Assembly: GCA_024400305.1 (NCBI GenBank)
Contig: JAKSMX010000011.1
Coordinates: 20,765 to 84,764 of the forward strand
Source of the DNA: Bacteroidales bacterium
GTDB taxonomy: Bacteria; Bacteroidota; Bacteroidia; Bacteroidales; F082
DNA: 64,000 nucleotides
Direction: 5' to 3'
Under the pieces are notes generated by a model. The model ran no database searches. It worked only from the letters and a program-made list of their open reading frames with translations, and was not told the origin of the DNA. Shown piece by piece: positions 8,771 through 40,178 of this stretch (position 1 is its first letter; the number at the start of each line of letters is the position of its first letter). The translations under genes and the position numbers were made by a program.

Positions 8771-8773
8771 CTT

Positions 8774-10495: not shown

Positions 10496-10587
10496 ATCTG
10501 AAAAATGATAGTTGTCTTGTTACAATTCTGATTTTTAGTGAGTTACTGCCTTTTTAAACAAAATTCCAACTGTAAAATTTCAAGTTG

Positions 10588-10618
10588 CAAAATTAAATAA
10601 ATTATTAAAAATCCCAAA
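10588..10618 (-). promoter_or_regulatory. Promoter of the Na/Pi cotransporter gene
   Basis: On the minus strand TTTG (10618-10615) is followed after 19 nt by TAATTTTG (10595-10588), a near-ideal Bacteroidetes -33/-7 promoter. The leader before the start codon at 10495 would be about 85 nt. Confidence 0.75.
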
Positions 10619-10629
10619 CTTTTTTCTGC

Positions 10630-10998
10630 TCATTTGGTTTTTCTGTTGCGCCAATGACTTAATTCGGGATTGTTGTCGTGCGACCTCGGACTTTCCGGCG
10701 TTTTAACCAACGTTTCAAAGTCGTCGAGATGCTTGGATACAATTTCAATTGCTTCAAGTGTCAGTTTCCTGTTAATTTTCACCAAATCATATATGCTGTC
10801 TGCAATCCAGAATTTAACCAATTCGTTTTCATCTAATTGCAATATTTTCGCAATCTTTATGACATCATCTTTGCTGAATTTCACATGACCGTTCTCCATC
10901 TTGCAATATCGGCTGTTGGTGACACCGACCATTTTCGACATGTCCTGCTGTTTGATGCCGGAATACAAGCGGGTTTCCCTTATTTTTTGTCTTAACAT
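10630..10998 (-). CDS. Small XRE-type helix-turn-helix regulator
   Basis: A 122-residue protein starting at the ATG MLRQKIRETR; a TTG start at 11040 would add 14 residues but is less likely. Residues 1-55 form an XRE/Cro HTH, with SGIKQQDMSKMVGVTNSRY as helices 2-3 and a KMENGHVKFSKDDVIKIAKIL segment typical of this family. The rest is a helical tail of unknown role ending in polar residues. It lies downstream of rho on the same strand, 113 bases from its stop. Target genes cannot be told from sequence. Confidence 0.78.
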   Translation of the reverse strand: MLRQKIRETRLYSGIKQQDMSKMVGVTNSRYCKMENGHVKFSKDDVIKIAKILQLDENELVKFWIADSIYDLVKINRKLTLEAIEIVSKHLDDFETLVKTPESPRSHDNNPELSHWRNRKTK

Positions 10999-11111
10999 GT
11001 TGCTTTTGTTAATGTTGATATTCAATTCCGATGCCAACAATGTTTGTCACATATATTACCTTTGTAAAATTGCCCGCTTTAGTTTTGGTTGTTTCAATTT
11101 TATTTTGAAAA

Positions 11112-20352: not shown

Positions 20353-20567
20353 GTTCGTGGTTTTTGTATTGAATTTCCATGTCGGTTTCTGACGATATTT
20401 TCTTTCAAAACAAGATGAAATTTTAGTCGTTTTTTACAAATTTTTTCTTTTTTTCGCATGAGGTTTTCTGTTTTTATGCGTGCAGTTTTTTTGAAAAGAT
20501 GTTTGAGGGTGTAAACATATTTTCAGGAGACGGAAAAAGTTTCGTATATTTTTTTTATAAAATTAAA
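20353..20567. other. Gene-free AT-rich spacer before the polysaccharide locus
   Basis: The whole gene-free stretch runs from 20318 to 20631, with a terminator at its left end and a promoter at its right end. In the middle I see no coding frame with credible codon use, no inverted repeat of note and no integrase or attachment-site duplication of the tRNA ends. Confidence 0.5.
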
Positions 20568-20594
20568 TTTGAAAGGAATTATTCCGTATTTTTG
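20568..20594 (+). promoter_or_regulatory. Probable promoter of the wlbA-like / sugar transferase operon
   Basis: TATTTTTG (20587-20594) matches TAnnTTTG and is preceded by TTTG at 20568-20571, though the 15-nt spacing is short of the usual 19. It lies 37 bases before the first gene of the polysaccharide locus. Confidence 0.55.
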
Positions 20595-20631
20595 CAGGGT
20601 TTCTAACTTAACGAATAATTGGATTAGGTTT

Positions 20632-21612
20632 ATGTTTAATTTTGCGTTGATAGGTGCGGCTGGATATATTGCACCAAGACATTTGAAAGCAATTGCAGAC
20701 ACAGGCAACAAGCTCGTGGCGGCGTACGACAAATTTGACAGTGTCGGCCGCCTTGACAGTTTTTTCCCGGATTGCGTTTTTTTCACTGAACATGAGCTGT
20801 TTGACAGATATTGCAGCAAGGTGAAAGGTACCGAAGGCAACATTGATTGGGTTTCGGTCTGCACGCCGAACTACACACACGATGCGTTTATCCGTTACGG
20901 TCTCCGTCTCGGAGCGAATGTGATATGTGAGAAACCTGTCGTTCTGAATCCGTGGAACATTGACGCACTTATGAAAGTCGAAGAAGAGACCGGGTGCAAG
21001 GCATATAACATTCTGCAGCTCAGGCTTCACGACAGCATAGTTGCCCTTAAGAAAAAAGTCGAGGAGGGTCCGAAAGACAAAATATATAATATTGACCTTA
21101 CGTATATCACGTCACGAGGAAATTGGTACTACTCTTCATGGAAGGGCGACAACCACAAGAGCGGCGGCGTGGCCACAAACATCGGCGTTCATTTCTACGA
21201 CATGCTCCAGTGGATATTCGGACCTGTGCAGGAGAATATCGTTCACGTGATGAGTTTCGACCGAGTTGCAGGTTATCTCGGCCTCAAGAACGCCAGAGTG
21301 CGTTACTTTTTGAGTATCAATGCCGAATGCCTTCCGGAAAACGCAGTCAATGGCGAGAAGAAAACCTACAGGACCTTGAACATCGACGGCGATGAGTTTG
21401 AGTTCAGCGAAGGCTTCACCGAACTTCACACAAAGAGCTATCAGAACATCCTGGCCGGGAACGGATTCCGCATCTCGGAAGCGAGACCATGCATACAAAT
21501 TGTCCACGACATCAGAAACGCCAAGCCTGTCGGATTGGTCGGCGACTACCACCCGCTGGCGAAAATGCCTTTGGCAAAGCATCCGTTCGGATGGGATGAC
21601 GTCAAATATTAA
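20632..21612 (+). CDS. wlbA: Gfo/Idh/MocA oxidoreductase, WlbA-like nucleotide-sugar 3-dehydrogenase
   Basis: A 326-residue protein from the ATG MFNFALIGAAGYIAP. The N-terminal Rossmann domain has the dinucleotide motif LIGAAGYIA (6-14) and the family-defining EKP at 100-102 (VICEKPVVLN). A C-terminal substrate domain includes GVATNIGVHFYDML. It resembles WlbA/WbpB enzymes, which oxidise the 3-position of UDP-GlcNAc-uronic acid on the way to 2,3-diamino sugars. The usual partner aminotransferase and acetyltransferase (WlbC, WlbB) are not next to it, so the exact reaction is not certain. It is the first gene of the locus, 22 bases before the sugar transferase. Confidence 0.8.
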   Translation: MFNFALIGAAGYIAPRHLKAIADTGNKLVAAYDKFDSVGRLDSFFPDCVFFTEHELFDRYCSKVKGTEGNIDWVSVCTPNYTHDAFIRYGLRLGANVICEKPVVLNPWNIDALMKVEEETGCKAYNILQLRLHDSIVALKKKVEEGPKDKIYNIDLTYITSRGNWYYSSWKGDNHKSGGVATNIGVHFYDMLQWIFGPVQENIVHVMSFDRVAGYLGLKNARVRYFLSINAECLPENAVNGEKKTYRTLNIDGDEFEFSEGFTELHTKSYQNILAGNGFRISEARPCIQIVHDIRNAKPVGLVGDYHPLAKMPLAKHPFGWDDVKY

Positions 21613-21634
21613 ATTTTAATGTTTTTGGAAAGAG

Positions 21635-22756
21635 TTGGTTTCGGAAGAGAAAATACCGGTTTTCAATGATGTTCGCAAGGATGAAGTTTTGGAGGCGAAC
21701 AAGAATGTTGTCGCCGGCAACACTTTCGACCTGTCAACATTCGGTGACGAGGAGCTTGAAAAGGTCTTCAAGGTCTTGTTCCAGCCGATAACCAAAGAGA
21801 CTCTGGATTGGCTGGACGATTACTCCAAGAAAAGCGTTGCGGTTGAAGACGGGACTGGACATGTGGTTCTTGGGGAGTGGTTCCTCAACAATCAGCGTTA
21901 TCTCAACCGGTATATCATCAAAGTGAACGAGAAACTCGAAACCGGCGGCTATTTCATAGGCTGTTTTGTCACGGCGAAGAAGCGTCACGACAAATATTAC
22001 ACTAAAGGCTATCCGAAATGGGTCGCCCGCATCCGTTTCTCGTTCGATTTCCTGTGGCATCGTATTTGTCCTAAATTGATGCTCACCAAGAAGTTCTATT
22101 TTTTCGTAAACAGAAGCGTCAAACGTGCGCTTCCGCGGATGGAGGTATTGGGGCGACTTTATTACTGCGGCTTTGAGCTGTACCGGGAGTTGTATGTAGG
22201 CGAAAATTATTTCTTCGTCGCAAGAAAAGTAAAAGAGCCGTGTAATGACCAGCACCCGTCATACGGCCCGCTTATAAAGCTCAACAGGGTGGGGAAGGAC
22301 GGCAAATTGATACAGGTTTATAAGTTCCGTACCATGTATGCCTATTCGGAATATCTTCAGAAAGAGATGTACGACTCCAACAAACTCGACGATGGCGGGA
22401 AAATCAACGATGACTTCAGGATATCAGGTTGGGGCGCGTTCCTGCGGAGATACTGGCTCGATGAATTGCCGATGTTCATCAATGTGCTGAAAGGTGAAAT
22501 GTGCCTCGTCGGTGTCAGGCCGTTGAGTCCGCACTATTACAGTCTGTATTCCAAAGAACTGCAGGACTTCAGAATAAAATTCAAGCCTGGCATGCTGCCT
22601 CCGTTTTATGCTGACAACCCTGTCACCTTGGATGATATTCAGGAAAGCGAGATGCGTTATCTGAAGGCATACGAGCAACATAAATTCCGAACAAAATGGG
22701 TCTATTTCTGGAAGATAATGAATAATATCCTGTTTAAAAACAGACGTTCAAAATAG
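21635..22756 (+). CDS. Initiating sugar transferase (bacterial sugar transferase domain) with unusual N-terminal half
   Basis: A 373-residue protein from a TTG start preceded by GGAAAGAG. The C-terminal half is a polyprenyl-phosphate sugar-1-phosphate transferase domain: LNRVGKDGKLIQVYKFRTM, DDFRISGWGAFLRRYWLDEL, and KGEMCLVGVRPLS. Such enzymes load the first sugar phosphate on undecaprenyl phosphate. The usual hydrophobic N-terminal segment of this domain (KR-FD then a long membrane hairpin) is absent. Instead about 200 residues resemble a degenerate methyltransferase-like fold (VNEKLETGGYFIGCF, LPRMEVLGRLYYCGFELY, ENYFFVARK). Related two-part proteins occur in Bacteroides loci. A terminator follows. 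Confidence 0.8.
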   Translation: MVSEEKIPVFNDVRKDEVLEANKNVVAGNTFDLSTFGDEELEKVFKVLFQPITKETLDWLDDYSKKSVAVEDGTGHVVLGEWFLNNQRYLNRYIIKVNEKLETGGYFIGCFVTAKKRHDKYYTKGYPKWVARIRFSFDFLWHRICPKLMLTKKFYFFVNRSVKRALPRMEVLGRLYYCGFELYRELYVGENYFFVARKVKEPCNDQHPSYGPLIKLNRVGKDGKLIQVYKFRTMYAYSEYLQKEMYDSNKLDDGGKINDDFRISGWGAFLRRYWLDELPMFINVLKGEMCLVGVRPLSPHYYSLYSKELQDFRIKFKPGMLPPFYADNPVTLDDIQESEMRYLKAYEQHKFRTKWVYFWKIMNNILFKNRRSK

Positions 22757-22773
22757 TAGTTTCAAAAATATAG

Positions 22774-22797
22774 GAGGATGCCAAGTCCTCTTTTTAT
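22774..22797 (+). terminator. Terminator after the sugar transferase gene
   Basis: GAGGA (22774-22778) and TCCTC (22786-22790), 7-nt loop, then TTTTTATTTA. It closes the first two-gene unit of the locus. Confidence 0.65.
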
Positions 22798-22809
22798 TTA
22801 TTTATTACA

Positions 22810-22839
22810 TTGGTGTTATCAAAAAAAACATTATCTTTG
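22810..22839 (+). promoter_or_regulatory. Main promoter of the polysaccharide operon
   Basis: TTG (22810-22812), 19-nt spacer, TATCTTTG (22832-22839): a consensus Bacteroidetes promoter. The leader before the first permease gene is then about 150 nt, unusually long for this genome's other genes. Confidence 0.78.
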
Positions 22840-22924
22840 CAAATTAAAAATTTAAATGATGAAAATCAAGACGAAATTTTCAATAATTTTGTAATATCTT
22901 GATTTTTATTTAATTATAAGTGAA

Positions 22925-22953
22925 GCCACTTTGGTTTATGTGACCCAAGTGGC
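22925..22953 (+). promoter_or_regulatory. Leader hairpin upstream of the ABC permease genes
   Basis: GCCACTTTGG (22925-22934) and CCCAAGTGGC (22944-22953) form a 10-bp stem with one mismatch and a 9-nt loop in the middle of the long leader. No T-run follows, so it is not a plain terminator; an antitermination or regulatory element is possible. Confidence 0.55.
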
Positions 22954-22998
22954 GAAGCTGTGTAATAAAAAAGTGCAGTTTTCACGGTTGAATTTGCG

Positions 22999-23847
22999 AT
23001 GAAAGAAGATAACTGGGACATTGAAATCAGGCCGAAAGACAGGATGCTATCCGTTGATTTCAAGGAGATGTGGCGTTATCGCGACCTTTACTGGCTTTTT
23101 GTGCGGCGTGACATCACGACCATGTACAAGCAGACGGTGCTCGGACCGCTCTGGTTCATCATTAACCCGATAATGGGGATGATAGTGATGGTGGTTGTCT
23201 TCGGCGGCGTTGTCGGCATCCCTACCGACGGCGTCCCAGCGACTTTGTTTTATCTGCTCGGCCCCGCAATCTGGGGGTATTTCTCAAGCTGCCTGACATC
23301 AACGTCAAATTCATTCGTCACGAATTCCGGCATCTTCGGGAAGGTTTATTTCCCGAGGATGATAATGCCCGTTGTGGCAGTCACGACAAACCTTGTCAGT
23401 TTCGGGGTCAACATCCTGCTGTTCACTTGTTTTTATGTTTACTACGTGGCCACTGGCACTCCGATAGCACCGAACTGGATGGCGTTGCTGTTCCCTGTCT
23501 TGATTGTGATGCTCGCGTTGCTGGCGATGGGCTTCGGTATGTTAATCTCTTCTGTCTCAACGAAATACAGAGACGTTCAGATGTTTTTCGAATATATCGT
23601 CTCGCTGTGGATGTATGTCACGCCGGTCATCTATCCGTTGAGTCTTGTCACAAATCCGAAGTTGCATTTCGTCATGTCGTTGAATCCTGTCACGCCGATA
23701 ATGGAGGCGGTGAAATACGGGCTTTTAGGTTCGGGCAGTTTCAGCTGGCTATGGCTCGGCTACAGTTTTGTTTTCATGACAATCTTGCTCGCAATAGGGA
23801 TTGTCGTTTTCAACAGGACACAGAAATCGTTCATGGACACGGTTTAG
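22999..23847 (+). CDS. wzm: ABC-2 type polysaccharide export permease (Wzm), copy 1
   Basis: A 282-residue protein with a cytoplasmic amphipathic N-terminus, six predicted membrane helices, and the conserved signatures YKQTVLGPLWFIINP, GKVYFPRMIMPV and SSVSTKYRDVQMFF-LWMYVTPVIYPLS. These match O-antigen/capsule permeases that, with a Wzt ATPase, move a finished undecaprenyl-linked glycan across the inner membrane. It is followed after 2 bases by a second, clearly homologous permease gene. The matching ATPase gene (wzt) lies about 10 kb downstream. Confidence 0.93.
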   Translation: MKEDNWDIEIRPKDRMLSVDFKEMWRYRDLYWLFVRRDITTMYKQTVLGPLWFIINPIMGMIVMVVVFGGVVGIPTDGVPATLFYLLGPAIWGYFSSCLTSTSNSFVTNSGIFGKVYFPRMIMPVVAVTTNLVSFGVNILLFTCFYVYYVATGTPIAPNWMALLFPVLIVMLALLAMGFGMLISSVSTKYRDVQMFFEYIVSLWMYVTPVIYPLSLVTNPKLHFVMSLNPVTPIMEAVKYGLLGSGSFSWLWLGYSFVFMTILLAIGIVVFNRTQKSFMDTV

Positions 23848-23849
23848 TT

Positions 23850-24692
23850 ATGGAAAAATTCACGACAGAAATAAAGCCGAAAGATAAGTTGTTCGACCTA
23901 GAATTGAAGCAGGTATGGGAGAAACGCTATCTTTTGTGGCTGTTCATCAAGAGGGATCTGACCGTCAAGTTCAAGCAGACCATCTTCGGTTTCGCTTGGT
24001 ATTTCATCTCGCCGCTGATTTCAACATTCATCTACATCATCGTTTTCAGCCGCGTCGCGGGCATTCCCACCGACGGCATCCCGCAGCCGCTTTTCTATCT
24101 GTCGGGCACCTGCCTGTGGAACTATTTTTCGCAGTGTATCGGCAAGACGTCAACCACGTTCCAGGAAAATTCCGGGCTGTTCGGAAAGGTGTATTTCCCG
24201 AGGCTTATCTCTCCGATATCGGAGGTCGTGTCACATCTGTTCAGGTTTTTCATTCAACTTTCACTTTTCGTGATCGTATATTTGATTTTCGTGATCAAAG
24301 GCGCTGATGTCCATCCGAACTGGTATCTTCTGCTTTTCCCGGTGCTCGTCGTGATGCTCGGAGGCATCGCCCTCGGACTCGGCCTGATTGTCACTTCGCT
24401 TACGACAAAATACCGCGACCTGAAGAACTTTTTCAGCGTTTTCGTCTCTCTGTGGATGTACGCCACGCCTATAGTTTATCCTTTGAGCGTCATTGAAAAT
24501 CAGAAGCTTAAGACGATAATGACGTTGAATCCGCTGACGCCAATCACGGAGGCGTTCAAATACGGCTCGATGGGGGCCGGTGAGTTCAGCTGGGGCTGGC
24601 TCGCCTACAGTTTCGCTGTGATGTTGGTGCTTCTTGTCGTCGGGATGCTGATGTTCAACAGGAAACAGAAAATGTTTATCGATACGATTTGA
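23850..24692 (+). CDS. wzm: ABC-2 type polysaccharide export permease (Wzm), copy 2
   Basis: A 280-residue paralogue of the preceding protein. The same landmarks align: FKQTIFGFAWYFISP, GKVYFPRLISPI, TSLTTKYRDLKNFF, LWMYATPIVYPLS, plus a shared N-terminal pattern (EIKPKDKLFDLELKQVWEKR against EIRPKDRMLSVDFKEMWRYR). An in-frame extension upstream to 23427 overlaps the first permease and is not real. The two permeases may form a heterodimer with Wzt, or one may be an alternative; both read intact. Confidence 0.93.
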   Translation: MEKFTTEIKPKDKLFDLELKQVWEKRYLLWLFIKRDLTVKFKQTIFGFAWYFISPLISTFIYIIVFSRVAGIPTDGIPQPLFYLSGTCLWNYFSQCIGKTSTTFQENSGLFGKVYFPRLISPISEVVSHLFRFFIQLSLFVIVYLIFVIKGADVHPNWYLLLFPVLVVMLGGIALGLGLIVTSLTTKYRDLKNFFSVFVSLWMYATPIVYPLSVIENQKLKTIMTLNPLTPITEAFKYGSMGAGEFSWGWLAYSFAVMLVLLVVGMLMFNRKQKMFIDTI

Positions 24693-24694
24693 TA

Positions 24695-29645: not shown

Positions 29646-30782
29646 ATGCATATTATTTTTAACAAGCCATATCTCACCGGCAAGGAGTCTCATTACATGT
29701 ATCAGGCGGTATATGCAGGGAAAATCTCCGGCAACGGTGAGTTTACAAAAAAATGCCAGGAATATTTCGAGCGGCGTTACGGTTTCAGGAAATGCCTGCT
29801 GACGACGAGCTGCACCGACGCTCTCGAAATGGCGGCTATGCTTTGTGATGTGAGACCCGGCGACGAAGTCATTGTGCCGAGTTATACTTTTGTCTCATCG
29901 GCTTTGGCTTTCGTGAGGGCGGGGGCGAAAATCGTGTTTGCCGACAGCTGCGCCGAGAATCCAGACATCGATGCCGACAGGATTGAGGAATTGGTAACAC
30001 CGAGAACGAAGGTCATCGTTCCGGTTCATTACGCAGGTGTGGCCTGCGACATGGACAAGATAATGGAAATCGCCAATCGTCACAACATTCTCGTTGTTGA
30101 AGACGCTGCTCAAGCCGTTGATTCATATTATGTTTCACCGAGGACAGGCGGGAAGAAAGCACTCGGGAGCATCGGACATTTTGGCTGCTTCTCGTTTCAT
30201 GAGACAAAAAACATCATTTCGGGTGAAGGCGGGATGCTCACGATCAACGACGAGCGTTTCATCCGCCGCGCCGAGATAATCTGGGAGAAAGGCACGAACC
30301 GCGCCGAGTTCTTCCGCGGCGAGGTGAACAAATACGGCTGGGTTGACATTGGAAGTTCTTTCTTGCCGAGTGAGGTGGTGGCCGCTTTCCTTTGGGCTCA
30401 GATTGAGCATCTTGATATTATTCAGGAAAAACGTAAGATGTTGTGGAACAGGTATTACGGACTCCTTGCACCGGCAGCGGCGAAGGGAATGTTCCGGCTG
30501 CCGGATGTCCCGGTTTACGCCACAAACAACGCTCATATATTCTACTTGGTCTGCAACAGCCTTGAAGAACGCACCGCATTGATAAACAAACTGAAAACCA
30601 ACGATATCGAATCGGTGTTCCATTATCTCTGCCTCCACAGCAGCCCATATTATCACGACAAGCACGACGGACGCGAGTTGCCGAACTGCGACCGTTTCGC
30701 CGACTGCTTGGTGCGTATGCCGATGTTCTACGAACTTGGCGAGGACGATGTGGAGAGAATTTGCGGGGTGATAATGAACTGA
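29646..30782 (+). CDS. wecE: DegT/DnrJ/EryC1 aminotransferase, WecE/RffA-like
   Basis: A 378-residue PLP enzyme. The PLP-binding Lys188 lies in SFHETKNI and Asp153 in VVEDAAQAVD; the substrate loop GEGGMLTIND follows. The N-terminal FNKPYLTGKESHYMYQAV and TTSCTDALEMAAML are closest to WecE/RffA, which makes dTDP-4-amino-4,6-dideoxygalactose (Fuc4N) from the 4-keto sugar. The dTDP-4-keto sugar supply genes (rmlA, rmlB) are not in the window, so they must lie elsewhere. A second, VioA-type aminotransferase is at 42202-43317. Confidence 0.87.
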   Translation: MHIIFNKPYLTGKESHYMYQAVYAGKISGNGEFTKKCQEYFERRYGFRKCLLTTSCTDALEMAAMLCDVRPGDEVIVPSYTFVSSALAFVRAGAKIVFADSCAENPDIDADRIEELVTPRTKVIVPVHYAGVACDMDKIMEIANRHNILVVEDAAQAVDSYYVSPRTGGKKALGSIGHFGCFSFHETKNIISGEGGMLTINDERFIRRAEIIWEKGTNRAEFFRGEVNKYGWVDIGSSFLPSEVVAAFLWAQIEHLDIIQEKRKMLWNRYYGLLAPAAAKGMFRLPDVPVYATNNAHIFYLVCNSLEERTALINKLKTNDIESVFHYLCLHSSPYYHDKHDGRELPNCDRFADCLVRMPMFYELGEDDVERICGVIMN

Positions 30783-30791
30783 ACAAAGATC

Positions 30792-32387
30792 ATGAAGAAA
30801 CTATTGGAAAATAAATACTTGTTTCCTGTTTCGGTCCTCTTTGCCGATATATTGTTTTTTATATTGGTATCGCTTTGTCTTCCAATTCGTTATGGCGAGT
30901 GTGACGATGTGATAATGTGCATGATCGCGTCAGGCTTGTACACCGGCGTTCCCGACTGTCACCTTGTCTTTGTCAATGCGATATATGGCTGGCTGATATC
31001 TTCAATGTATAAACTGACAACAGCGGTTGAGTGGTATTCTGTTTCGTTTGCAATTCTGCATGTCGTTTCAATGACAGTTGTCACTTGCTGTACATTGAAG
31101 GATAAAACTATAACAAAAATCCACAAGGCAGTCTTTCTTGTCTTTTTCTATGTGCTGTGGACGAGAATCATTCTGTCGTTCCAGTTTACGACAACAGCCG
31201 GTCTGACGTGTTTTGCCGGATTGTTGATGTTGCGAAAGGCTGATGCGCCGCCGTTCTCAAAATGTTCAGACATAATTATCGGAGCGGCATTGATCATCAT
31301 TTCGTCACTGATAAGATTTTCGTCAATGGGGATGATTGTTCTGCTGTTTATCCCGCTCATATTATTTGACAACGGCCTGCACTTAAAAAAATACGTTCCA
31401 TATATCATTATCTTCTTTTCTGTCATATCACTGAATTTTGTTGACAAATTTTTTTACAACACTCCGGAATGGAAATATTATCTTGAATATAATTCGGTAA
31501 GATCAAAAATACAGGACAATCCGAATACTTATCGGTTGGACATCAAATTGCCGGAAAACGTGTCATATTACGACTTTTGCATGTTCCGGGGTTTTGAAGG
31601 AGATCCGAATGTCATGACCTTGGATGTGATAAAAGACTTGTATGATTCAAATTATAATGTCGGGGTAATCGACAAGCTTGGCAATTTGGGCACATTGAAC
31701 AATTATCGTCTGGTTACGGCGATGATGGCTGCGTTGTACATTGTTCTTATTATTTCCATTAAAAACAGAAAATTCAAGTTGGTGTTATCGGCGACATTGT
31801 TTGTTTTATTGTTTGTCCTGATATTTTTATGCTTGGATCATTATGTGAAAAACAGGGTTTTTGTATGTTGTCTGTTCCCTGTGATATATGTTGCGATGGT
31901 ATCGATGCCATATTTTTTTAAGAAAAAAATACTGTACGTGTTTTCAGTAATTATTATGCTGTTGATTTCGGCGAAATATGTCAAACAGACTTCCGTCGCT
32001 GTCAGTAATTATGAAGACACCGAAAAATTATTTTCAAATAACATGAAATGTCTGGAAATGTATGGTGAAACGAAAAACATTATCATGGGATTAAATACGG
32101 AAAGCCTGAATCCGTACAAAATCCATGATGAATTGTCCGGATACAATATAAAATATAATAGCTGGCTGTCGGGCTGCCCATTGAACAGAGGTTTTTTTGA
32201 ATCATATTTGGATTATATTGACAATGAAATATTGCTGCTGAATGTTGATACTGACGTAATAAGTGATTGTATAAGTGATAATTACGGGGTGGAAGCTGAA
32301 GCTGTAGTGGTCGCGGAATATGGTGAATGTAAATTGGAGAAGTTAGTTCGTGCCAGTTCGGCAAATTATAATGATACCGTTCGATAA
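30792..32387 (+). CDS. Multi-spanning GT-C-like membrane glycosyltransferase
   Basis: A 531-residue, AT-rich gene product with about ten hydrophobic helices and an extracytoplasmic C-terminal region. The first loop after helix 1 contains GECDDVIMC, acidic residues in the position expected of the catalytic loop of GT-C (lipid-linked donor) transferases, and the large loop ESYLDYIDNEILLL is near the end. No exact family is recognised. Its place after the GtrB-like and SMR genes suggests it adds the lipid-linked sugar to the glycan on the periplasmic face. It could instead be a polymerase. Confidence 0.6.
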   Translation: MKKLLENKYLFPVSVLFADILFFILVSLCLPIRYGECDDVIMCMIASGLYTGVPDCHLVFVNAIYGWLISSMYKLTTAVEWYSVSFAILHVVSMTVVTCCTLKDKTITKIHKAVFLVFFYVLWTRIILSFQFTTTAGLTCFAGLLMLRKADAPPFSKCSDIIIGAALIIISSLIRFSSMGMIVLLFIPLILFDNGLHLKKYVPYIIIFFSVISLNFVDKFFYNTPEWKYYLEYNSVRSKIQDNPNTYRLDIKLPENVSYYDFCMFRGFEGDPNVMTLDVIKDLYDSNYNVGVIDKLGNLGTLNNYRLVTAMMAALYIVLIISIKNRKFKLVLSATLFVLLFVLIFLCLDHYVKNRVFVCCLFPVIYVAMVSMPYFFKKKILYVFSVIIMLLISAKYVKQTSVAVSNYEDTEKLFSNNMKCLEMYGETKNIIMGLNTESLNPYKIHDELSGYNIKYNSWLSGCPLNRGFFESYLDYIDNEILLLNVDTDVISDCISDNYGVEAEAVVVAEYGECKLEKLVRASSANYNDTVR

Positions 32388-32432
32388 TTGTTTGAATTTG
32401 ATGAATTACAAAAAAATATTTGTTGAAATATT

Positions 32433-32542
32433 AAAACATGACCGCAATAGAATTTGAAAACATATCAAAGCAGTACCGTTTGGGATTGGTGAGCACGAAA
32501 ACACTAAGCCACGACATCCGCAGGTTCTGGATAACCAATGTC
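32433..32542. repeat. 110-bp direct repeat, left copy (5' end of wzt)
   Basis: It matches 33750-33859 at 109 of 110 positions, the only difference being A at 32533 against C at 33850. The repeat begins 5 bases before the wzt ATG and covers the first 35 codons. The two copies lie 1317 bases apart and enclose the ATPase gene. Confidence 0.98.
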
Positions 32543-32593
32543 AACCTTCACGGGAACGGTTTGAATTACGCCTCGGAGCGTAACTCCAAATAG
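32438..32593 (+). pseudogene. Truncated wzt stub
   Basis: It starts like intact wzt (MTAIEFENISKQYRLGLVST, then through FWITNV), leaves the wzt sequence after base 32542, and ends after 16 unrelated codons at TAG (32591-32593), giving a 51-residue product with no P-loop. It is positioned where wzt would be expected after the GT-C gene. It looks like the broken-off front end of the original gene, with the functional copy restored downstream of the ATPase gene. Confidence 0.9.
32563..32586. repeat. Palindrome at the junction upstream of the first ATPase gene
   Basis: The 9-bp arms 32563-32571 and 32578-32586, with one mismatch and a CTCGGA loop (core TTACGC and GCGTAA), lie in the 58 non-wzt bases between the stub junction and the ATPase ATG. 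It could be an operator, a transcription attenuator or a recombination site. Confidence 0.65.
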
Positions 32594-32600
32594 TGTAACA

Positions 32601-33710
32601 ATGAATCCTTTTAATTACATATCAATAGCTCGCGGGGATGGCTTTTACGACCGTGCCGAAGAAACGGAGCGGTTGGTGAAGACTTTGTCGGGCGGCAACA
32701 ACATCGTTTTGCTTGCGCCTCGCCGTTACGGAAAGACATCGCTTGTCTTCAAGGTGATGGAGGAGTTGGAGAAACAAGGTGTTGACTGTGTGTATTTCGA
32801 CATGATGCCGGTCTATTCATTGGAGTCGTTTGTCGAATTGTTCACCTCTGCGTTGTACCGGAAGCAGACCGCGAAGGAGAAGTTCTTGAGCATCGTCTCA
32901 AAATTGAAGAATATCAGGCCGAAGCTCACTTTCGATCCGGCAGGAAACGCCGATTTCAGCATTGACTTTAACGAGCCTCGTGTTTCGGTCTCCACTGTCG
33001 CCGACGTTCTCGACCTGCCTGAAAAGATGTCACAGGACGGGCGGAAGATAGTCGTGGTTTTTGATGAATTTCAGGAGATACGCAGGTTCGGTAAGTTCGG
33101 CTTGGAAAGTCTGATGCGCAGCAAGATACAGTTGCATCATGCCGCCAACTATCTTTTCCTTGGCAGCAAGACACATCTGATGCAGGACATGTTCATGGCG
33201 AAGAACCGCCCGTTTTACAATTCGGCAATGGTGATGCAGCTGTCGGTGTTACCAGAAGCTGACACATGCCGCTTCCTTCAAAACAGGTTCGCTGCGTCAG
33301 ACATCAGGATTGACGAAACTATGTGCCGTCATCTTATTTCACGTGCCGACAATATACCTTATTATATACAATTGATCGCAGCGGAAGTCTGGCAATACAT
33401 GACTCCTGATCTGCATGATGTAACAAAAGACATTGTTGACGAGTGCTTCGCAAGGGTGATAGAACTTAAACATGATTATTATTTTGAGTTGTTTGACCGG
33501 TTTTCTCCGGCACAGAAACGTCTCTTGCAATCCATAGCACGGTCGGGAGAGAATATTTTCTCCTCGGAGTATATTGCAAACAACCGTTTGGTCGGAGCCT
33601 CATCCATACAGAAATCGCTTGCGGTGCTGATAGAATCCGGCTTGGTTGAACGCTCCGATTCGACATATTTCATCGGAGACCCGTTCTTCAGACGTTTCTT
33701 GCTACAGTGA
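32601..33710 (+). CDS. STAND-like P-loop ATPase inserted between wzt duplicates (copy 1)
   Basis: A 369-residue protein. NPFNYISIARGDGFYDRAEE leads to Walker A PRRYGKT (40-46) and a hydrophobic Walker B strand ending in DE at 155-156 (VVVFDEFQEI). A sensor-like GSKTHLM segment and a helical part follow, then a C-terminal winged-helix-like region (SSIQKSLAVLIESGLVERSD, with YFIGDPFFRRFL). This matches the archaeal-type ATPase/STAND group often annotated only as ATP-binding protein in Bacteroidota. It has no glycan-synthesis motif. It lies between two copies of the wzt 5' end and is homologous to the ATPase at 36969-38102. Function unknown. Confidence 0.85.
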   Translation: MNPFNYISIARGDGFYDRAEETERLVKTLSGGNNIVLLAPRRYGKTSLVFKVMEELEKQGVDCVYFDMMPVYSLESFVELFTSALYRKQTAKEKFLSIVSKLKNIRPKLTFDPAGNADFSIDFNEPRVSVSTVADVLDLPEKMSQDGRKIVVVFDEFQEIRRFGKFGLESLMRSKIQLHHAANYLFLGSKTHLMQDMFMAKNRPFYNSAMVMQLSVLPEADTCRFLQNRFAASDIRIDETMCRHLISRADNIPYYIQLIAAEVWQYMTPDLHDVTKDIVDECFARVIELKHDYYFELFDRFSPAQKRLLQSIARSGENIFSSEYIANNRLVGASSIQKSLAVLIESGLVERSDSTYFIGDPFFRRFLLQ

Positions 33711-33749
33711 AAACGGATTTTAAAATTGAGAGAATTAACAGGTAACTGA

Positions 33750-33859
33750 AAAACATGACCGCAATAGAATTTGAAAACATATCAAAGCAGTACCGTTTGG
33801 GATTGGTGAGCACGAAAACACTAAGCCACGACATCCGCAGGTTCTGGATCACCAATGTC
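33750..33859. repeat. 110-bp direct repeat, right copy (start of intact wzt)
   Basis: Identical to 32433-32542 except for one base. It holds the start codon and first 35 codons of the functional wzt gene and continues into its coding sequence. Confidence 0.98.
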
Positions 33860-35038
33860 CTGGGGAAGGAAGACCCCTATTTGAAAATCGGCGAGACCAA
33901 CGACCGCTCGACGAAAGGCAGTTCCGAATATGTCTGGGCTTTGAAAGATATCAATTTCAAGGTTGAGCAGGGCGACGTCCTCGGCATCATCGGCAAGAAC
34001 GGTGCCGGAAAGAGCACGCTGCTGAAGCTTTTGTCGAAAGTCACAGGCCCTACGACGGGTGTAATCCGTGCGAAAGGCCGCATCGGCTCCCTGCTCGAAG
34101 TGGGAACAGGTTTCCATCAGGAGATGACCGGCCGCGAGAACATTTATCTCAACGGGGCCATTCTCGGAATGACAAAACATGAAATCTCAAAAAAACTCGA
34201 TGAGATCATTGATTTCTCCGGCTGCGAGCGTTACATCGACACGCCGGTGAAACGTTATTCTTCGGGCATGATGGTTCGTCTCGGCTTCGCAGTCGCCGCC
34301 CACCTCGACCCGGAGATTCTCGTGGTTGACGAGGTGCTGGCAGTGGGCGACGCCGAGTTCCAGAAGAAGGCCATCGGCAAGATGCAGGAGGTTTCGAGCG
34401 GCGAAGGCAGGACGGTGCTGTTCGTGAGCCACAATATGGCTTCGGTCAGGAAATTGTGCAAGACGGGCGTCGTGCTTAAAAACGGAAGCGTTGATTTCAC
34501 AGGGACTGCTGATGATGCCGTAGAACATTACATGACACTTGATGTTTTCCGGGAAGAATATTTCAAGGACATCACCGAAAAAATGCGTAATCCCAATATG
34601 CTGAAATATGTCTATTTTGAGAGAATTGCCTTTGCTTCCCAAAAAAACAAGTTCGCGTCAAAAGAGCCGATCGAGATGGAGCTTGATGTGTGTGCAACGC
34701 GAGATGTGCCTGAGGCAAGGATAAATTTCACGATCTTCGGACTTGATGACATTCCTGTCGGAGGAGTCTCCAATGTGCAGACGTTTTCAATTAAAGCAGG
34801 CGAACATAAAAAGATCGGTCTGACAATTAAAAACCATAATTTGGCGTACGGTGACTACAAGATGTCGTTCTCAACAGGGATCGGAAACTATACAACCGGC
34901 CAGAAAGATTACGATATTGTTTGTAATATTTTGAAATTCAGAATTGAAAGGACGGATGTGTCCCAAAATGAGAATTTTGTCCAGTGGAATCCTTGTTGGG
35001 GAAGGATAATGTTTGATTCAGAAACGGTCGTTCTATGA
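33755..35038 (+). CDS. wzt: ABC transporter ATPase for polysaccharide export (Wzt)
   Basis: A 427-residue protein. The nucleotide-binding domain (1 to about 260) has Walker A GKNGAGKS at 80-87, signature motif YSSGM, Walker B LVVDEVLAVGD, and switch histidine FVSHN. About 165 more residues form the C-terminal carbohydrate-recognition-like beta domain found in Wzt proteins that recognise the glycan's terminal modification. It would energise the two Wzm permeases encoded 9-11 kb upstream. Its first 110 bases, including the start region, are duplicated before the preceding ATPase gene. The stop overlaps the next gene by 4 bases. Confidence 0.95.
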   Translation: MTAIEFENISKQYRLGLVSTKTLSHDIRRFWITNVLGKEDPYLKIGETNDRSTKGSSEYVWALKDINFKVEQGDVLGIIGKNGAGKSTLLKLLSKVTGPTTGVIRAKGRIGSLLEVGTGFHQEMTGRENIYLNGAILGMTKHEISKKLDEIIDFSGCERYIDTPVKRYSSGMMVRLGFAVAAHLDPEILVVDEVLAVGDAEFQKKAIGKMQEVSSGEGRTVLFVSHNMASVRKLCKTGVVLKNGSVDFTGTADDAVEHYMTLDVFREEYFKDITEKMRNPNMLKYVYFERIAFASQKNKFASKEPIEMELDVCATRDVPEARINFTIFGLDDIPVGGVSNVQTFSIKAGEHKKIGLTIKNHNLAYGDYKMSFSTGIGNYTTGQKDYDIVCNILKFRIERTDVSQNENFVQWNPCWGRIMFDSETVVL

Positions 35039-35928
35039 AAATCTTCTCGGTAATCGTCACCTACAACGGACGGAAATGGTACGACAAATGTATCGGAAGC
35101 CTGCTGGAATCGTCGGTTCCGGTTACTCCGATTGTTGTTGACAATGCGTCTTCCGACGGTGCGGTTGATTATATAAGGTCCAGATTCCCGTCGGCGATTG
35201 TAATTCCTTCCAATGAAAATCTCGGTTTCGCCAAAGCCAACAACATCGGGATACGCTACGCCATTAACCACGGTGCTGACTATGTGTTTCTTTTGAATCA
35301 GGATGCCTGGGTTGAGAAGGATACGGTTGAGAAATTGGTCGGATCTTTTGAAAAACACGAAAACATCGGCATCGCATGTCCGATAAACCTTAATGCCGCG
35401 AAAACCGCAATGGATTACAAATCAGTCACTGACATGCCTGGCGACTATGTGTCGGATCTGTATTTCGGCAATGTGAAGGATGTCTATGACGTGAGGTTTT
35501 TCTGCGCGGCGTCGTGGATGATAAGCGCGGATTGCATCAGGAAAGTCGGCGGGTTCGACACAAATCTTTTCAAACATTACGGTGAGGACAACAACTACTG
35601 CCAGAGAGTGAAATATCATGGAATGAGGATCGTCGTCAACACCCAGTGTACAATGTGCCATGACAGGGAGTTCAGGAAAATTTATGAAGGCGAATACAGA
35701 AACAGGAATTTCAAGCAGAACGACACTTCGCGCAGGATAGAATTCGGCGATATCACTTCGGATATTGATATCGACTCCTTTATCAATTCCCTGAAAAAAA
35801 GCATCAGAAAATCATATACGAGATTCAGATTCTCGAAGATTGAGCTTTATAAAAACGAACTTGCATTTTTCGAAATGGTGAAAAAATCGAGAGATGCTAA
35901 CTCCCAAGGCGGGATGGTCTGGCTTTAG
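35035..35928 (+). CDS. GT2 glycosyltransferase, rhamnosyltransferase-like
   Basis: A 297-residue GT-A enzyme: FSVIVTYNGRKWYDKCIGSL, VDNASSDGAVDYI, ENLGFAKANNIGI, and a nucleotide-binding LLNQDAWVEKD segment (QDA where many have DxD). KVGGFDTNLFKHYGEDNNYC is the usual substrate loop of RfbF/WbbL-like rhamnosyltransferases. The ATGA overlap with wzt shows translational coupling. Donor and acceptor are not determined by sequence. Confidence 0.88.
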   Translation: MKIFSVIVTYNGRKWYDKCIGSLLESSVPVTPIVVDNASSDGAVDYIRSRFPSAIVIPSNENLGFAKANNIGIRYAINHGADYVFLLNQDAWVEKDTVEKLVGSFEKHENIGIACPINLNAAKTAMDYKSVTDMPGDYVSDLYFGNVKDVYDVRFFCAASWMISADCIRKVGGFDTNLFKHYGEDNNYCQRVKYHGMRIVVNTQCTMCHDREFRKIYEGEYRNRNFKQNDTSRRIEFGDITSDIDIDSFINSLKKSIRKSYTRFRFSKIELYKNELAFFEMVKKSRDANSQGGMVWL

Positions 35929-35950
35929 TCTGTGAATCAATCAGTTGGAA

Positions 35951-36820
35951 ATGCTGCTATATTGTAAACATTCAGGCCAGTTGTGCAATCGACTTTGGTC
36001 ATTGGTCCCGGCAGTGGCTTTCGCTTTGAAACACAAGGCGACGTTGCATGTGTTATTTGCCAATGAAGATTATTTGCGAAATTTTGGTGAAATAAAGAAA
36101 AACAAACATGTCAAATTTTGGCTGACAAATAAAAAATGGCATAAGAAAAGGCTGATGCAATGGTTTGAGAATTTCTCTGAACGGAAAGGCCGGGAAATTC
36201 ATGGAGAACTTGACCTGATAAAAAAAACAGGATTCGGTTTCAGGTTTATCAATGGTTGGGAACACCGTAATGATGTTTCGTATATACCGGAATATAAAAA
36301 TCAAATAAGGGAATTGTTCGCTTTTGACCCGGCTGTCAGGAAAAAAGTTGATGATTTTCTGGAGGATTTTGATGGAGTGACAATTGGTGTCCATGTGCGT
36401 CGCGGCGATTACAGGCAATGGCGTGACGGCAAGTATTATTTTGATGATGAAACTTATGCAAGAATCATGTTGTCATTAAAAAGTCAGGTTGCTGAAAAAT
36501 TGCAGAAACGGTGTAGATTCATAGTCTGCACAAACGGGACGTATAATCATTCCAATTCTGCATTGGACATCATGCAAATGCCTGGAACAGATGCGATTAC
36601 CGAAATATGTGCTTTAAGCAGGTGTGACTATATCGTCGGCCCGCCAAGTACATACAGCCAGTGGGCTTCGTTCATGGGTGACACGCCTCTCAATTTCATT
36701 TTAAATGCCGATGAGATGCCAAGAATTGAAGATTTCAGTCCGATAGTGCTTATGAACACTTTTGGAAACGGACGGAAGTTGATTGACATCGTTGATGAAA
36801 AGAGTTTCATCGTCGCATGA
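35951..36820 (+). CDS. GT11-like (alpha-1,2-fucosyltransferase-type) glycosyltransferase
   Basis: A 289-residue protein from the ATG MLLYCKHSGQLCNRLW; an upstream TTG at 35945 would add two residues. The N-terminal nucleotide-sugar motif GQLCNRLWSLVPAVAFA resembles the G-x-x-x-N-x-x- pattern of GT11, and the family-defining HVRRGDYRQW lies in the middle (about residue 147), with a late GPPSTYSQWASFMG substrate loop. Such enzymes usually transfer fucose or a related deoxysugar from GDP. It is one of three HxRRGD proteins in the locus. The donor is not proven. Confidence 0.75.
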   Translation: MLLYCKHSGQLCNRLWSLVPAVAFALKHKATLHVLFANEDYLRNFGEIKKNKHVKFWLTNKKWHKKRLMQWFENFSERKGREIHGELDLIKKTGFGFRFINGWEHRNDVSYIPEYKNQIRELFAFDPAVRKKVDDFLEDFDGVTIGVHVRRGDYRQWRDGKYYFDDETYARIMLSLKSQVAEKLQKRCRFIVCTNGTYNHSNSALDIMQMPGTDAITEICALSRCDYIVGPPSTYSQWASFMGDTPLNFILNADEMPRIEDFSPIVLMNTFGNGRKLIDIVDEKSFIVA

Positions 36821-36968: not shown

Positions 36969-38102
36969 ATGACGATAAAGATAAATCCCTTCGTTACATA
37001 CGGATATGAGTCGGCGGAGTATTTCTGCGACCGAAAGAAAGAATGTGAGCAGCTGACCCGATTGCTGACCAACGGCAACAACGTGGCTCTGATTTCGCCG
37101 AGGAGAATGGGGAAGACGGGGCTGTTGCACCACTGCTTCAATCAGGAAGCTGTAAGTAAAAACTACAACACGTTTCTTGTTGACATATACGCGACGAAAA
37201 ACATGTCTGACATGGTTTACCAGATGGGGCAGGTCATAGTTCGCGGACTCAGGCCGTGGGGGCAGAAGGCCATTGACAAGTTTCTGAACATCGTGACGTC
37301 ATTGCGCACGGGAATATCGCTCGACGGCATGGGGAATGCGAGCTGGAACCTGGAGATAGGCGAAATCAAGCGGCCGGTTTTTACGTTGGAGGAGATATTC
37401 TCGTATCTGCGGCAGGCTGAAAGGCCGTGCATCGTGGCGATTGACGAGTTCCAGGCTATATCCAGCTACCCCGAAGCGAATGCAGAGGCAATGTTGAGGG
37501 GGCTTGTGCAGGAATGCAGGAATGCGGTCTTTGTGTTCTCAGGGTCGCAGCGGCATATCATGAACGAGATGTTCTCGTCGCCGGCGCGTCCCTTCTATCA
37601 GAGCGTCTCGGTGATGAACCTGCCGCCTATCGCATTGGATGAATATGTGAAATTCGCGAGACACCATTTCGAGGCGAACGGCAAAAAGATTGATGACGGG
37701 GTGGTTGAAATGATTTACGACAGGTTCGACGCCACAACGTGGTATGTCCAGAAGATGCTGAATGAACTGTATTCACTGACACCTGAAGGAAGTCAGTGCC
37801 AGCTTGAGATGGTTGACATGGCATTGGAGCAGATACTTGGATCATATACGCAGACATATCAGGACATGCTGATACAGATGTCGGTCAAGCAGGCGTCGCT
37901 GTTAAGGGCCATAGGCCAGGAAGGCAAAGCGAGCCAGATAACCGGCAGCAAGTTCATCAAAGCGCATCATCTTGATTCGGCAAGCAGCGTGCAAAAGGTG
38001 AGCAAGGTGCTGTTAGACAAGCAGATAATCACTCAAAACGGAGGAGTGTATGAAATATACGACAAATTCATGTCCTTGTGGCTGAAAAAACAGGCTTTAT
38101 AG
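36969..38102 (+). CDS. STAND-like P-loop ATPase (copy 2)
   Basis: A 377-residue homologue of the 32601-33710 protein. INPFVTYGYESAEYFCDRKK leads to Walker A PRRMGKT (44-50), a Walker B strand ending in DE at 159-160 (CIVAIDEFQAI), and a GSQRHIMNEMFSSPARPFYQS segment that aligns with GSKTHLMQDMFMAKNRPFYNS in copy 1. The C-terminal winged-helix-like end reads SSVQKVSKVLLDKQIITQNG. It has its own promoter and a terminator-like hairpin, making it a self-contained cassette in the glycan locus. It lies directly upstream of a second 5'-end duplication. No known pathway role. Confidence 0.85.
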   Translation: MTIKINPFVTYGYESAEYFCDRKKECEQLTRLLTNGNNVALISPRRMGKTGLLHHCFNQEAVSKNYNTFLVDIYATKNMSDMVYQMGQVIVRGLRPWGQKAIDKFLNIVTSLRTGISLDGMGNASWNLEIGEIKRPVFTLEEIFSYLRQAERPCIVAIDEFQAISSYPEANAEAMLRGLVQECRNAVFVFSGSQRHIMNEMFSSPARPFYQSVSVMNLPPIALDEYVKFARHHFEANGKKIDDGVVEMIYDRFDATTWYVQKMLNELYSLTPEGSQCQLEMVDMALEQILGSYTQTYQDMLIQMSVKQASLLRAIGQEGKASQITGSKFIKAHHLDSASSVQKVSKVLLDKQIITQNGGVYEIYDKFMSLWLKKQAL

Positions 38103-38174: not shown

Positions 38175-38246
38175 TTTAAATGATTAACTATTCCATAATA
38201 ATCCCCCACAAAAACACACCGGACCTGCTCCGCAAGTGTCTGGATT
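38175..38246. repeat. 72-bp direct repeat, left copy (5' end of the GT2 gene)
   Basis: Matches 39271-39342 at 69 of 72 positions, starting 5 bases before the GT2 ATG. The two copies lie 1096 bases apart and enclose the fucosyltransferase-like gene. Confidence 0.97.
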
Positions 38247-38275: not shown

Positions 38276-39283
38276 ATGACAAAAGAATGGTATTTTGACT
38301 ATAACAGTAGATTAAATCGTAAATTGGTTTATCATCTTGGATATGATGCAGGATTCTTTTCCGAGTATAATAATATGTTGTTTGCGATGATGTATTGTTT
38401 GACCCATAAGATACATTTTAGTATTTATTGCGATGATGCTAATTTTGGATTTGAAAAAGGATGGCAAGATTATTTTGAGCCATTTTTTGAAGAGGTTCAT
38501 GATGATTTTCATCATGTTAATAATTATAGGTGTTTTGAAAGGCCTATAACATCTGATTTTGTTGTTTTTTTGAAAAGGGTGTTTAAAGCAGCCTTGAAAA
38601 TGAATAAAAAATATTACAGACCATATTATAAATTTGAGGAAACGGAAATTGTAAAGAAACATAAAAAGGAAACCAAAATTGATTTATATACTCAAGATAT
38701 ATGGAATGATTTGATACAATATCCCACAAGAAGAGTTATTACAAACCCATACGATAATTCCAGTGTTTGTGAATTTGATTTTTTGAATATGTTAGATGCG
38801 ATGGCGTGGAAATTCAGTGAAAAAACAAAATGTGCCATTGACAATATTCTCGGAGCATTAGAAGTGCCAAAGGATTATGTTGGGATACATGTCAGAAGAG
38901 GTGATAAAATAAAAGAAGCATCTTTCGTGTCAGTTGATAATTATATGTCAATTCTAAAAGATAAAAGTGAAATAAAGAATGTATATGTTGCAACAGATGA
39001 CTATGGTACAATAAAGTTGTTGCGTGCCAATTATCCTGAATATAGGTTTTATTCACTTACAAAAGAAGTTAGTGCTGGTTACGATCAGACAGCTTTTGAT
39101 AATCTGGAAAAAGGGAAAAAACAAACCCACATGATTTCGCTTTTTGCTGATATTGAGATGTTGGCAAGTGCAAAGTGTTTTGTTGGAAGTTATTCTTCAA
39201 ATGTTGGTTTGTATATTGCAATTAGACGTAATAGAGAAAATTGCTTTTATGTTGATTACAAATCCGAATATTTAAATGATTAA
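38276..39283 (+). CDS. AT-rich fucosyltransferase-like glycosyltransferase (GT11/GT23-type)
   Basis: A 335-residue protein from the ATG MTKEWYFDYNSRLNRK; a GTG 21 bases earlier is possible. The core motif VGIHVRRGDKIKEA (about residue 205), followed by VYVATDDYGTIKLLRANYP and SLFADIEMLASAKCFVGSYSSN, resembles GDP-fucose transferases of the NodZ/FUT8 (GT23) and GT11 groups. The gene is much richer in A and T than its neighbours and lies between two copies of the next gene's 5' end, both signs of recent acquisition. Its stop codon lies within the right-hand repeat, overlapping the GT2 start. Confidence 0.75.
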   Translation: MTKEWYFDYNSRLNRKLVYHLGYDAGFFSEYNNMLFAMMYCLTHKIHFSIYCDDANFGFEKGWQDYFEPFFEEVHDDFHHVNNYRCFERPITSDFVVFLKRVFKAALKMNKKYYRPYYKFEETEIVKKHKKETKIDLYTQDIWNDLIQYPTRRVITNPYDNSSVCEFDFLNMLDAMAWKFSEKTKCAIDNILGALEVPKDYVGIHVRRGDKIKEASFVSVDNYMSILKDKSEIKNVYVATDDYGTIKLLRANYPEYRFYSLTKEVSAGYDQTAFDNLEKGKKQTHMISLFADIEMLASAKCFVGSYSSNVGLYIAIRRNRENCFYVDYKSEYLND

Positions 39284-39342
39284 TTATTCCATAATAATCC
39301 CTCACAAAAACACGCCGGACCTGCTCCGCAAGTGTCTGGATT
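39271..39342. repeat. 72-bp direct repeat, right copy (start of intact GT2 gene)
   Basis: Same sequence as 38175-38246 with three differences; it continues into the functional GT2 coding sequence. Confidence 0.97.
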
Positions 39343-40178
39343 CAGTTCCGCGGCGCGACGACATCCAAATCATTGTCGTTGACGACAATTCTGATGCCGG
39401 CAAGGTCGATTTCGGGCATTTCCCCGGGATGGGCGAGCCGCATACCGAAGTCTATCTCACAAAAGAAGGCAGAGGCGCGGGCTATGCCCGGAATGTCGGG
39501 TTGGAACACGCAAAAGGGAAGTGGATTCTGTTCTTGGATTCAGACGACTTCTTCCATGAATGCGTCTCTGAACTGATGGACAGATGCGTTGACAAAGATG
39601 CAGACGTGATCTTCTTCAAGGCTGATAGCATTAATCTTATTGACGGAACTGATGGGCACCGAGGGGATGAATATACGGAAAGAGTTGACATTGCAATAAA
39701 GAATAAAAATTATCAATCAGTCTTGATGTACTCTTGTCCCTGGGGGAAAATATTCAGTTTTGAATTTTTAAAAAAACACGGGATAAAATTCAATGAGGTA
39801 AGATATAGCAATGACGTTGTTTTCATGGCTAAAGTGGCGTTTTATTCGGGAAAATATGATGCAGTGGATTTGACGGCGTATTGTATTTCTGTGTCAAAAG
39901 GTACTTTAACAGGAATTGCAAAGCCGGAGTCATGCTTGATTAGGTTAAAACAGGATCTGGAAGGAATTAGGCTGTTGAAGAAAAAATTCATGTTGTCTCG
40001 ATACGATAAGTACTGGTATTTTTGTACATGGAAAGGTGTTTATGATACAAAGCTAATTAACGGATTATTATATTATCCACAAATGTTATGTTTGTTGGGT
40101 TCGGATTTTTTACTTGATTCGTTTAGGTTTTTTAATAAGAGACTAAAAAAAAATATTAGACATTTTATTAATAAATGA
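39276..40178 (+). CDS. GT2 glycosyltransferase with mosaic base composition
   Basis: A 300-residue GT-A enzyme: YSIIIPHKNTPDLLRKCLDS, IIVVDDNSDAGKVDF, EGRGAGYARNVGLEHAKGKW, and the DxD-type FLDSDDFFHEC. The first about 410 bases are GC-rich like neighbouring genes, while the rest is strongly AT-rich, suggesting that the 3' two-thirds came from elsewhere by recombination. Its 5' end is duplicated at 38175-38246. Donor and acceptor unknown. Confidence 0.87.
   Translation: MINYSIIIPHKNTPDLLRKCLDSVPRRDDIQIIVVDDNSDAGKVDFGHFPGMGEPHTEVYLTKEGRGAGYARNVGLEHAKGKWILFLDSDDFFHECVSELMDRCVDKDADVIFFKADSINLIDGTDGHRGDEYTERVDIAIKNKNYQSVLMYSCPWGKIFSFEFLKKHGIKFNEVRYSNDVVFMAKVAFYSGKYDAVDLTAYCISVSKGTLTGIAKPESCLIRLKQDLEGIRLLKKKFMLSRYDKYWYFCTWKGVYDTKLINGLLYYPQMLCLLGSDFLLDSFRFFNKRLKKNIRHFINK

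Follow-up and report, generated by a model that had tools for sequence, protein, structure and literature searches.

A wzt 5' stub, an ATPase_2 gene and an intact wzt in a Bacteroidales O-antigen-like locus: possible traces of one-sided cassette exchange

The window analysed here is a 64,000-nucleotide stretch of a Bacteroidales bacterium contig (JAKSMX010000011.1, positions 20,765 to 84,764); the features given with coordinates in this paragraph lie on its forward (+) strand. A repeat scan found a direct repeat of 110 nt with one mismatch (109/110) at positions 32433-32542 and 33750-33859. The left copy is a dead 5' stub of wzt: 5 nt are followed by an ATG at 32438 and by wzt sense up to codon 35, after which the frame (32438-32593) continues through 16 unrelated codons to a stop at 32593. 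The right copy is the start of an intact wzt (33755-35038, 427 aa), whose matches to ABC_tran (73.5 bits) and Wzt_C (35.4 bits) both exceed the cut-off. Between the repeats lie a junction filler (32543-32564), running from the stub end to the sequence in common with ATP1 of the related genome G089 (blastn homology begins at 32565), an ATPase leader (32565-32600) that carries operator-like palindromic repeats and is conserved with G089 by blastn, and the ATPase_2 (PF01637) gene itself, here called ATP1 (32601-33710, 369 aa; 44.1 bits against a cut-off of 33.2). The stub is adjoined on its upstream side by a 531-aa ORF (30792-32387), labelled GT-C in the initial annotation, which has no Pfam match at an E value of 0.001. 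A permease gene (23850-24692, start fixed from the length of the G089 homologue), which we take to be wzm-like, forms the left border of the region in which window and G089 differ. The locus has the appearance of an ABC-exporter O-antigen cluster: besides this permease it comprises sugar genes, wzt, a GT2 gene and another PF01637-like gene.

The duplication at 109/110 identity, the dead stub with its 35 wzt codons and 5 upstream bases, the intact wzt from 33755 and the ATPase between the repeats had all been described from the sequence alone, and each was recovered here. ATP1 is the sole ORF of at least 90 aa overlapping 32388-33754. Its earlier description as a STAND-like ATPase holds as far as the ATPase (PF01637) is concerned; STAND is a loose label, and no STAND profile matches ATP1. 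Residues 302-354 match MarR_2 below the cut-off. The second PF01637-like gene, ATP2 (36969-38102), is borderline (32.7 and 33.7 bits in two profile runs, cut-off 33.2) and scores 20.3 bits against nSTAND1, below the cut-off of 27.1. PADLOC and NCBIfam gave no confident anti-phage hit for ATP1 or ATP2, with weak partial matches or none. As had been stated, the stub-ATPase unit contains no transposase or integrase and no terminal inverted repeat: the window repeat scan found no inverted repeat of at least 14 nt bracketing it. By these tests the unit is neither an insertion sequence or transposon nor an integrase-driven gene-restoring island, and a search of a plasmid collection returned no match. 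Across several phyla, operator-like palindromic repeats precede ATPase_2 genes or directly follow them (window 32565-32600, L260, L264, L284 and L312), and at L312 and L284 the same palindromic array flanks the ATPase_2 gene on both sides. Self-regulation of ATPase_2 genes, via a C-terminal wHTH acting on these putative operator palindromes, is possible.

The 110-nt repeat stands apart from its surroundings. Save for pieces of this repeat, the other direct-repeat families listed for 30000-36500 (20 of 21 listed) are 14-34 nt long with 71-93% identity. A scan for wzt-start copies upstream of 43 wzt starts in congeners scored 195 bits at the window locus, against null maxima of 34.6 bits (reversed upstream sequence) and 24.7 bits (reverse-complemented upstream sequence). 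These starts came from a search with the 49-residue Wzt N-terminus, which matched 58 places in 49 of 99 congeners; three of the 58 are stubs, and 43 of the 55 non-stub starts were scanned (most start positions were one codon off, and the query was shifted by 3 nt). A short frame precedes an intact wzt in three genomes: the window's own, G022 and G075. The order in G022 is permease, 168-aa gene, stub, ATPase_2 split into two frames, and wzt; in G075 it is stub, DUF6922 plus AbiEii, and wzt. Further finds among the 43 scanned starts were a degenerate wzt stub in G087 and two tandem pairs of whole wzt genes; for 37 starts, no wzt-start copy lies within about 4.3 kb upstream. Two complete wzt genes with one gene between them occur at L078 (G010) and L083 (G103). 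In G011 an orthologue of the G022 ATPase, which matches its two pieces at 84% and 71%, lies straight before wzt, with no stub; judged from gene order, this arrangement may be donor-like. An assembly artefact is an unlikely source of the 110-nt repeat, because other genomes have the same architecture with different cargo and a different repeat sequence.

The nearest relative, G089, matches the window at 20541-24693 (82%) and from the wzt start to 38246 (86%); between wzm and wzt the two differ and have only short or lesser matches in common. In G089 the end of another gene lies 6 nt ahead of wzt, where there is neither stub nor ATPase, and the 531-aa ORF of the window has no DNA match to that gene. 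Since the gene preceding wzt is not the same in the two genomes, G089 is not a strict empty site for the ATP1 insertion. An ATP1 orthologue (91% aa identity) is located elsewhere in G089, immediately downstream of the wzm-like permease and a 79-aa gene. Behind this orthologue come two degenerate wzt-start remnants, of which the first was aligned and the rest read by eye; the same stretch, also by eye, holds remnants of the 3' end of the ATPase and of the start of the gene at window position 24689. Because ATP1 precedes wzt-start remnants in G089, its position beside a wzt start appears to be older than the window's stub. When the locus was tested for the one-sided homology of homology-facilitated illegitimate recombination (HFIR), the wzt side was homologous and the left junction (32543-32564) had no match in G089.

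The same architecture occurs a second time in the window. A 72-nt copy (38175-38246, 96%; ATG at 38180) of the 5' end of a GT2 gene precedes a fucosyltransferase-like gene (38276-39283, start possibly 38255; FUT8_N_cat above cut-off), which is followed by the intact GT2 gene (39276-40178), matched to the stub by sequence comparison; all three are on the + strand. Here G089 provides an empty site, with ATP2 followed directly by the GT2 gene, and G086 is the sole other genome of 99 with relatives of the window fucosyltransferase (E 1e-20). A flank test that is blind to gene starts (direct repeats scoring 40 bits or more in the 400 bp on each side) yielded this case and two others: in G071, an SLFN_AlbA_2/HATPase_c_4 gene lies between a GT2-type stub and its gene, and in G108, an ATPase_2 gene lies between a GT2 stub and the GT2 gene. 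The G108 case bears out the earlier forecast of the same ATPase family flanked by a partial copy of a different downstream gene. In G108 the GT2 start is present three times, in the order stub, fucosyltransferase-like gene, stub, ATPase, whole GT2 (L256, G108:C2:58000-72000, about 8109-11338, reverse complement). A joined-flank search for an empty site of the G108 ATPase, scoring at most five candidates per genome, found both flanks at one place only in G108, and nearly all other genomes matched the GT2 flank alone. Since other cargo shows the same stub architecture (the fucosyltransferase, the AlbA_2 regulator and the DUF6922/AbiEii pair), the ATPase is not supported as the agent of the rearrangement.

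In the genus loci scanned, partial gene copies outside genes of at least 180 aa were 5' ends throughout. With 358 queries for each gene part, the scan returned 10 hits for 5' ends, none for middle parts and none for 3' ends, in a set of loci some of which had been chosen for 5' stubs and from which L067, L068, L085 and L100 were removed because longer stretches overlap them. Of the ten hits, two (L079) represent one place on both strands, with the copy downstream, and another (L137) falls within a truncated GT2-like ORF; the remaining seven, from six genes, lie upstream with cargo behind them.

Most codon differences between stubs and intact genes are silent: the six pairs together have 44 changed codons, of which 29 are synonymous, where about 22% would be expected (pooled binomial, 5e-10); without G022 and G108 the count is 10/19 (P 0.003). 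By pair, the synonymous changes number 8/11 in G022, 11/14 in G108, 3/3 for the window GT2 gene, 1/1 for the window wzt, 3/6 in G071 and 3/9 in G075, the bias being not clear in the last two. Decay of a copy made by insertion would disregard codons, and the excess of synonymous changes favours recombination between haplotypes, in which two functional alleles were probably joined rather than one freshly duplicated; it likewise favours cargo that would have brought along its own version of the start of the downstream gene. The G022 stub is 93% identical to the wzt of G007 and 82% to its own wzt. At the window GT2 gene, the stub has the base of the G089 empty site at both informative positions (2/2) and the intact gene has another; at the third differing position stub, gene and G089 have three different bases. 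In G108 the outer stub is nearer to the gene (87%) than the inner stub (75%), an order that speaks against a simple insertion clock. These comparisons support stub and intact gene as putative recipient and donor alleles in G022, in G108 and at window 38175; a subsequent swap of the allele of the intact gene would mimic such import. The window wzt pair has one differing site, which is synonymous and at which G089 agrees with the intact gene; it is compatible with allele import as well as with simple duplication, and its case rests on analogy. The earlier view of the stub as a copy made by the insertion does not fit G022 and G108, where stub and gene look like diverged functional alleles. With these alleles, and with the lesser divergence of the outer G108 stub, simple target duplication as sole cause is not our first choice.

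ATPase_2 genes do look, from their flanks, like movable single-gene units, and in this respect they speak for the initial description of a cassette with a single ATPase as cargo. In the flank test, 17 of 73 distinct ATPase_2 loci in the genus have direct repeats on both sides, as do 3 of 252 distinct control genes (80 and 261 entries before merging). Two of the three control hits are stub cases described above, and the third is an intergenic repeat array. Where intergenic gaps of at least 60 nt lie on both sides, the counts are 10/38 for ATPase_2, 1/27 for controls and 0/29 for PGK. In other taxa, 70 of 80 loci were tested (10 were dropped for a contig end or partial match) and 69 had enough flank; 17 of the 69 have flanking repeats, several of them tandem repeats, against 1/69 in the reversed null. 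The repeats at ATPase_2 genes are of several kinds (gene stubs, terminators, iterons and tandem arrays), and orthologous loci are not independent; we estimate about ten independent repeat-flanked cases. Among 18 ATPase loci of the window's own genome (E 1e-4), no flanking repeats are common to different ATPases. AlbA_2, taken as a second test family, had 10 usable loci of 30 and gave 2 hits. At L266 (RUG13549 contig, ~10001-11104), a mirror case, 166 bp resembling a gene 3' end plus terminator lie on both sides of an ATPase_2 gene, and at L305 (Nitrosopumilus MAG, ~10001-11113) 71 bp of ATPase leader are repeated (85%) directly after the stop codon.

ATPase genes of at least 90% nucleotide identity also occur in different flanks (e.g., L128/L164, L153/L159 and L130/L165), with the homology breaking off no more than about 140 nt before and 115 nt after the ORF. 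An 86-bp repeat, E1, adjoins ATPases of three kinds or different subfamilies in congeners, partly in arrays; AAA ATPase arrays of DUF4143 and PF01637 types with E1 copies between them are present at L369 (G018:C49) and L370 (G096:C148). Because E1 also adjoins other ATPases, it was rejected as a plain target duplication. Where other genomes have E2-ATPase-E2, a solo palindrome E2 stands between two partial E1 copies and may be an excision product marking a lost ATPase. The E1/E2 arrays and the near-identical ATPases in differing flanks are the strongest support for the ATPase as a cassette. Palindromes lie upstream of 40/69 and 37/76 ATPase entries and 42/254 control entries (shuffles 8, 8 and 23), and downstream of 17/69, 18/76 and 31/254 (shuffles 3, 3 and 17), a few entries being the same locus twice. 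Matching palindromes on both sides were rejected as a general element end, with 3/69 and 4/76 found against 5 and 1 for swapped partners. A broader proposal, which we regard as tentative and on balance doubtful, is that PF01637 and AAA_14/DUF4143 AAA ATPases would be widespread movable single-gene cassettes that have no recombinase of their own, are bounded by direct repeats and sometimes by two-sided palindromic operators, and form arrays in some genomes. Such cassettes could adopt the 5' end of a downstream host gene as repeat, and landing there would rebuild the gene.

We lean, with modest confidence, towards reading the stub-ATPase-wzt block as the scar of one-sided-homology recombination during O-antigen cassette exchange. 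A donor segment with the ATPase already before wzt, in the order seen in G011, would have met a genome with wzt after another gene. The right side of the donor would have recombined by homology inside wzt, and its left side would have joined the resident wzt without homology, about 105 nt past the start codon. The 5' end of the resident wzt would then remain as a dead stub, and the event would be tolerated because one complete wzt is always kept; the claim of an insertion-type arrangement that leaves wzt whole is supported. Repeated events at one slot could stack stubs, as in G108 (stub-FUT-stub-ATPase-GT2), and the 109/110 direct repeat could allow RecA-type removal of the ATPase. That wzt and GT2 genes are conserved in their 5' parts and variable in their 3' parts may account for the use of 5' ends as anchors. 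The reading is based on the anatomy, on recurrence with other cargo and other downstream genes, on allele mismatch in two cases and on one empty site. For the window wzt copy, that the left join was illegitimate is inferred by analogy, as are donor, direction and timing. Against a scar, the repeats are all short (about 39-110 nt) and no more than about 60 nt separates the stub end from the start of the cargo, which is tighter than a random illegitimate join predicts. The left join has no provable microhomology, and mirror-image 3' remnants number 0/358 in the genus loci, some of which were picked for 5' stubs.

Two rival explanations centre on the ATPase. In an extension of the initial model, it could be a mobile single-gene unit that inserts with a long target duplication (about 35-110 bp); landing at a gene start would leave a stub plus a complete gene, the allele of the intact gene being swapped later in some genomes. 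The counts in the genus (17/73 against 3/252) and in other taxa (17/69) speak for this, as do the ATPases at least 90% identical in different flanks with homology ending near the ORF. We nevertheless consider it unlikely: such stubs also occur with other cargo, and several of the ATPase repeats are not target copies but terminators, tandem arrays or element-borne sequences (iterons, E1/E2). Orthologous loci make the count too high, the mismatch of stub and gene alleles requires a second step, and the unit contains no recombinase. Alternatively, homologous recombination between the flanking direct repeats could free a circle of ATPase plus one repeat, which a single crossover would reinsert at any site with that repeat; with the wzt 5' end as the repeat in the window, insertion would always rebuild wzt. 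Such a cassette circle would explain short stubs, differing stub and gene alleles and stacked stubs, and would agree with E1 around three ATPase kinds and with a solo E2 resembling an excision product. Yet neither a circle nor an extrachromosomal form was seen, a repeat of 110 bp is short for RecA, the ATPase before wzt in G011 has no stub, and the remnants in G089 are left unexplained; we judge it quite improbable. Hardly credible is a function of the stub as leader or attenuator for wzt or the ATPase. Its frame is open and in wzt sense for 35 codons, but the first G108 stub has an internal stop, the G087 stub is degenerate, the G075 stub changes are mostly replacements, and 37 of the 43 scanned wzt starts have no upstream copy.

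Integron gene cassettes and target-rebuilding integrases likewise place a single gene between direct repeats and keep the host gene whole. Unlike these, the window unit has no integrase, and its repeats consist of host gene sequence. As a PF01637 member, ATP1 belongs with the ATPase_2 and AAA_14-DUF4143 families (PF01637, PF13173, PF13635), which are defined by protein; direct repeats, operator palindromes and repeat-separated arrays are additional to that definition. Homology-facilitated illegitimate recombination with left-over gene parts was proposed for T6SS immunity-gene arrays in PMC5361080, and the same mechanism for Rhs loci (cited there; PMC2935791). As those accounts describe the T6SS and Rhs loci, they share with the scar proposed here a conserved anchor on one side, a non-homologous join on the other, old gene parts that remain and rounds that stack (PMC5361080). 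In those loci a conserved upstream part serves as anchor, and older genes or 3' ends are displaced downstream; in the window, by comparison, the anchor would be the 5' end of the downstream gene, a short 5' stub lies upstream, the gene is whole, and the setting is an O-antigen export and glycosyltransferase locus. Among the matches listed from open-licence literature, no title or abstract concerned wzt stubs or PF01637/DUF4143 genes as mobile cassettes. The recombination is most likely of a kind already known; its mirror form, with a 5' stub and a preserved gene, appears to be new.

O-antigen and capsule loci gain genes constantly, and the path of single insertions is seldom visible. Read as a scar of cassette exchange, the order of stub, cargo and whole gene would be a readable record of the position of the join, the resident allele and the order in which genes arrived. 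It would also mark a route by which defence-like accessory genes (ATPase_2, AbiEii, AlbA_2) may enter surface-sugar operons while the exporter stays unbroken.
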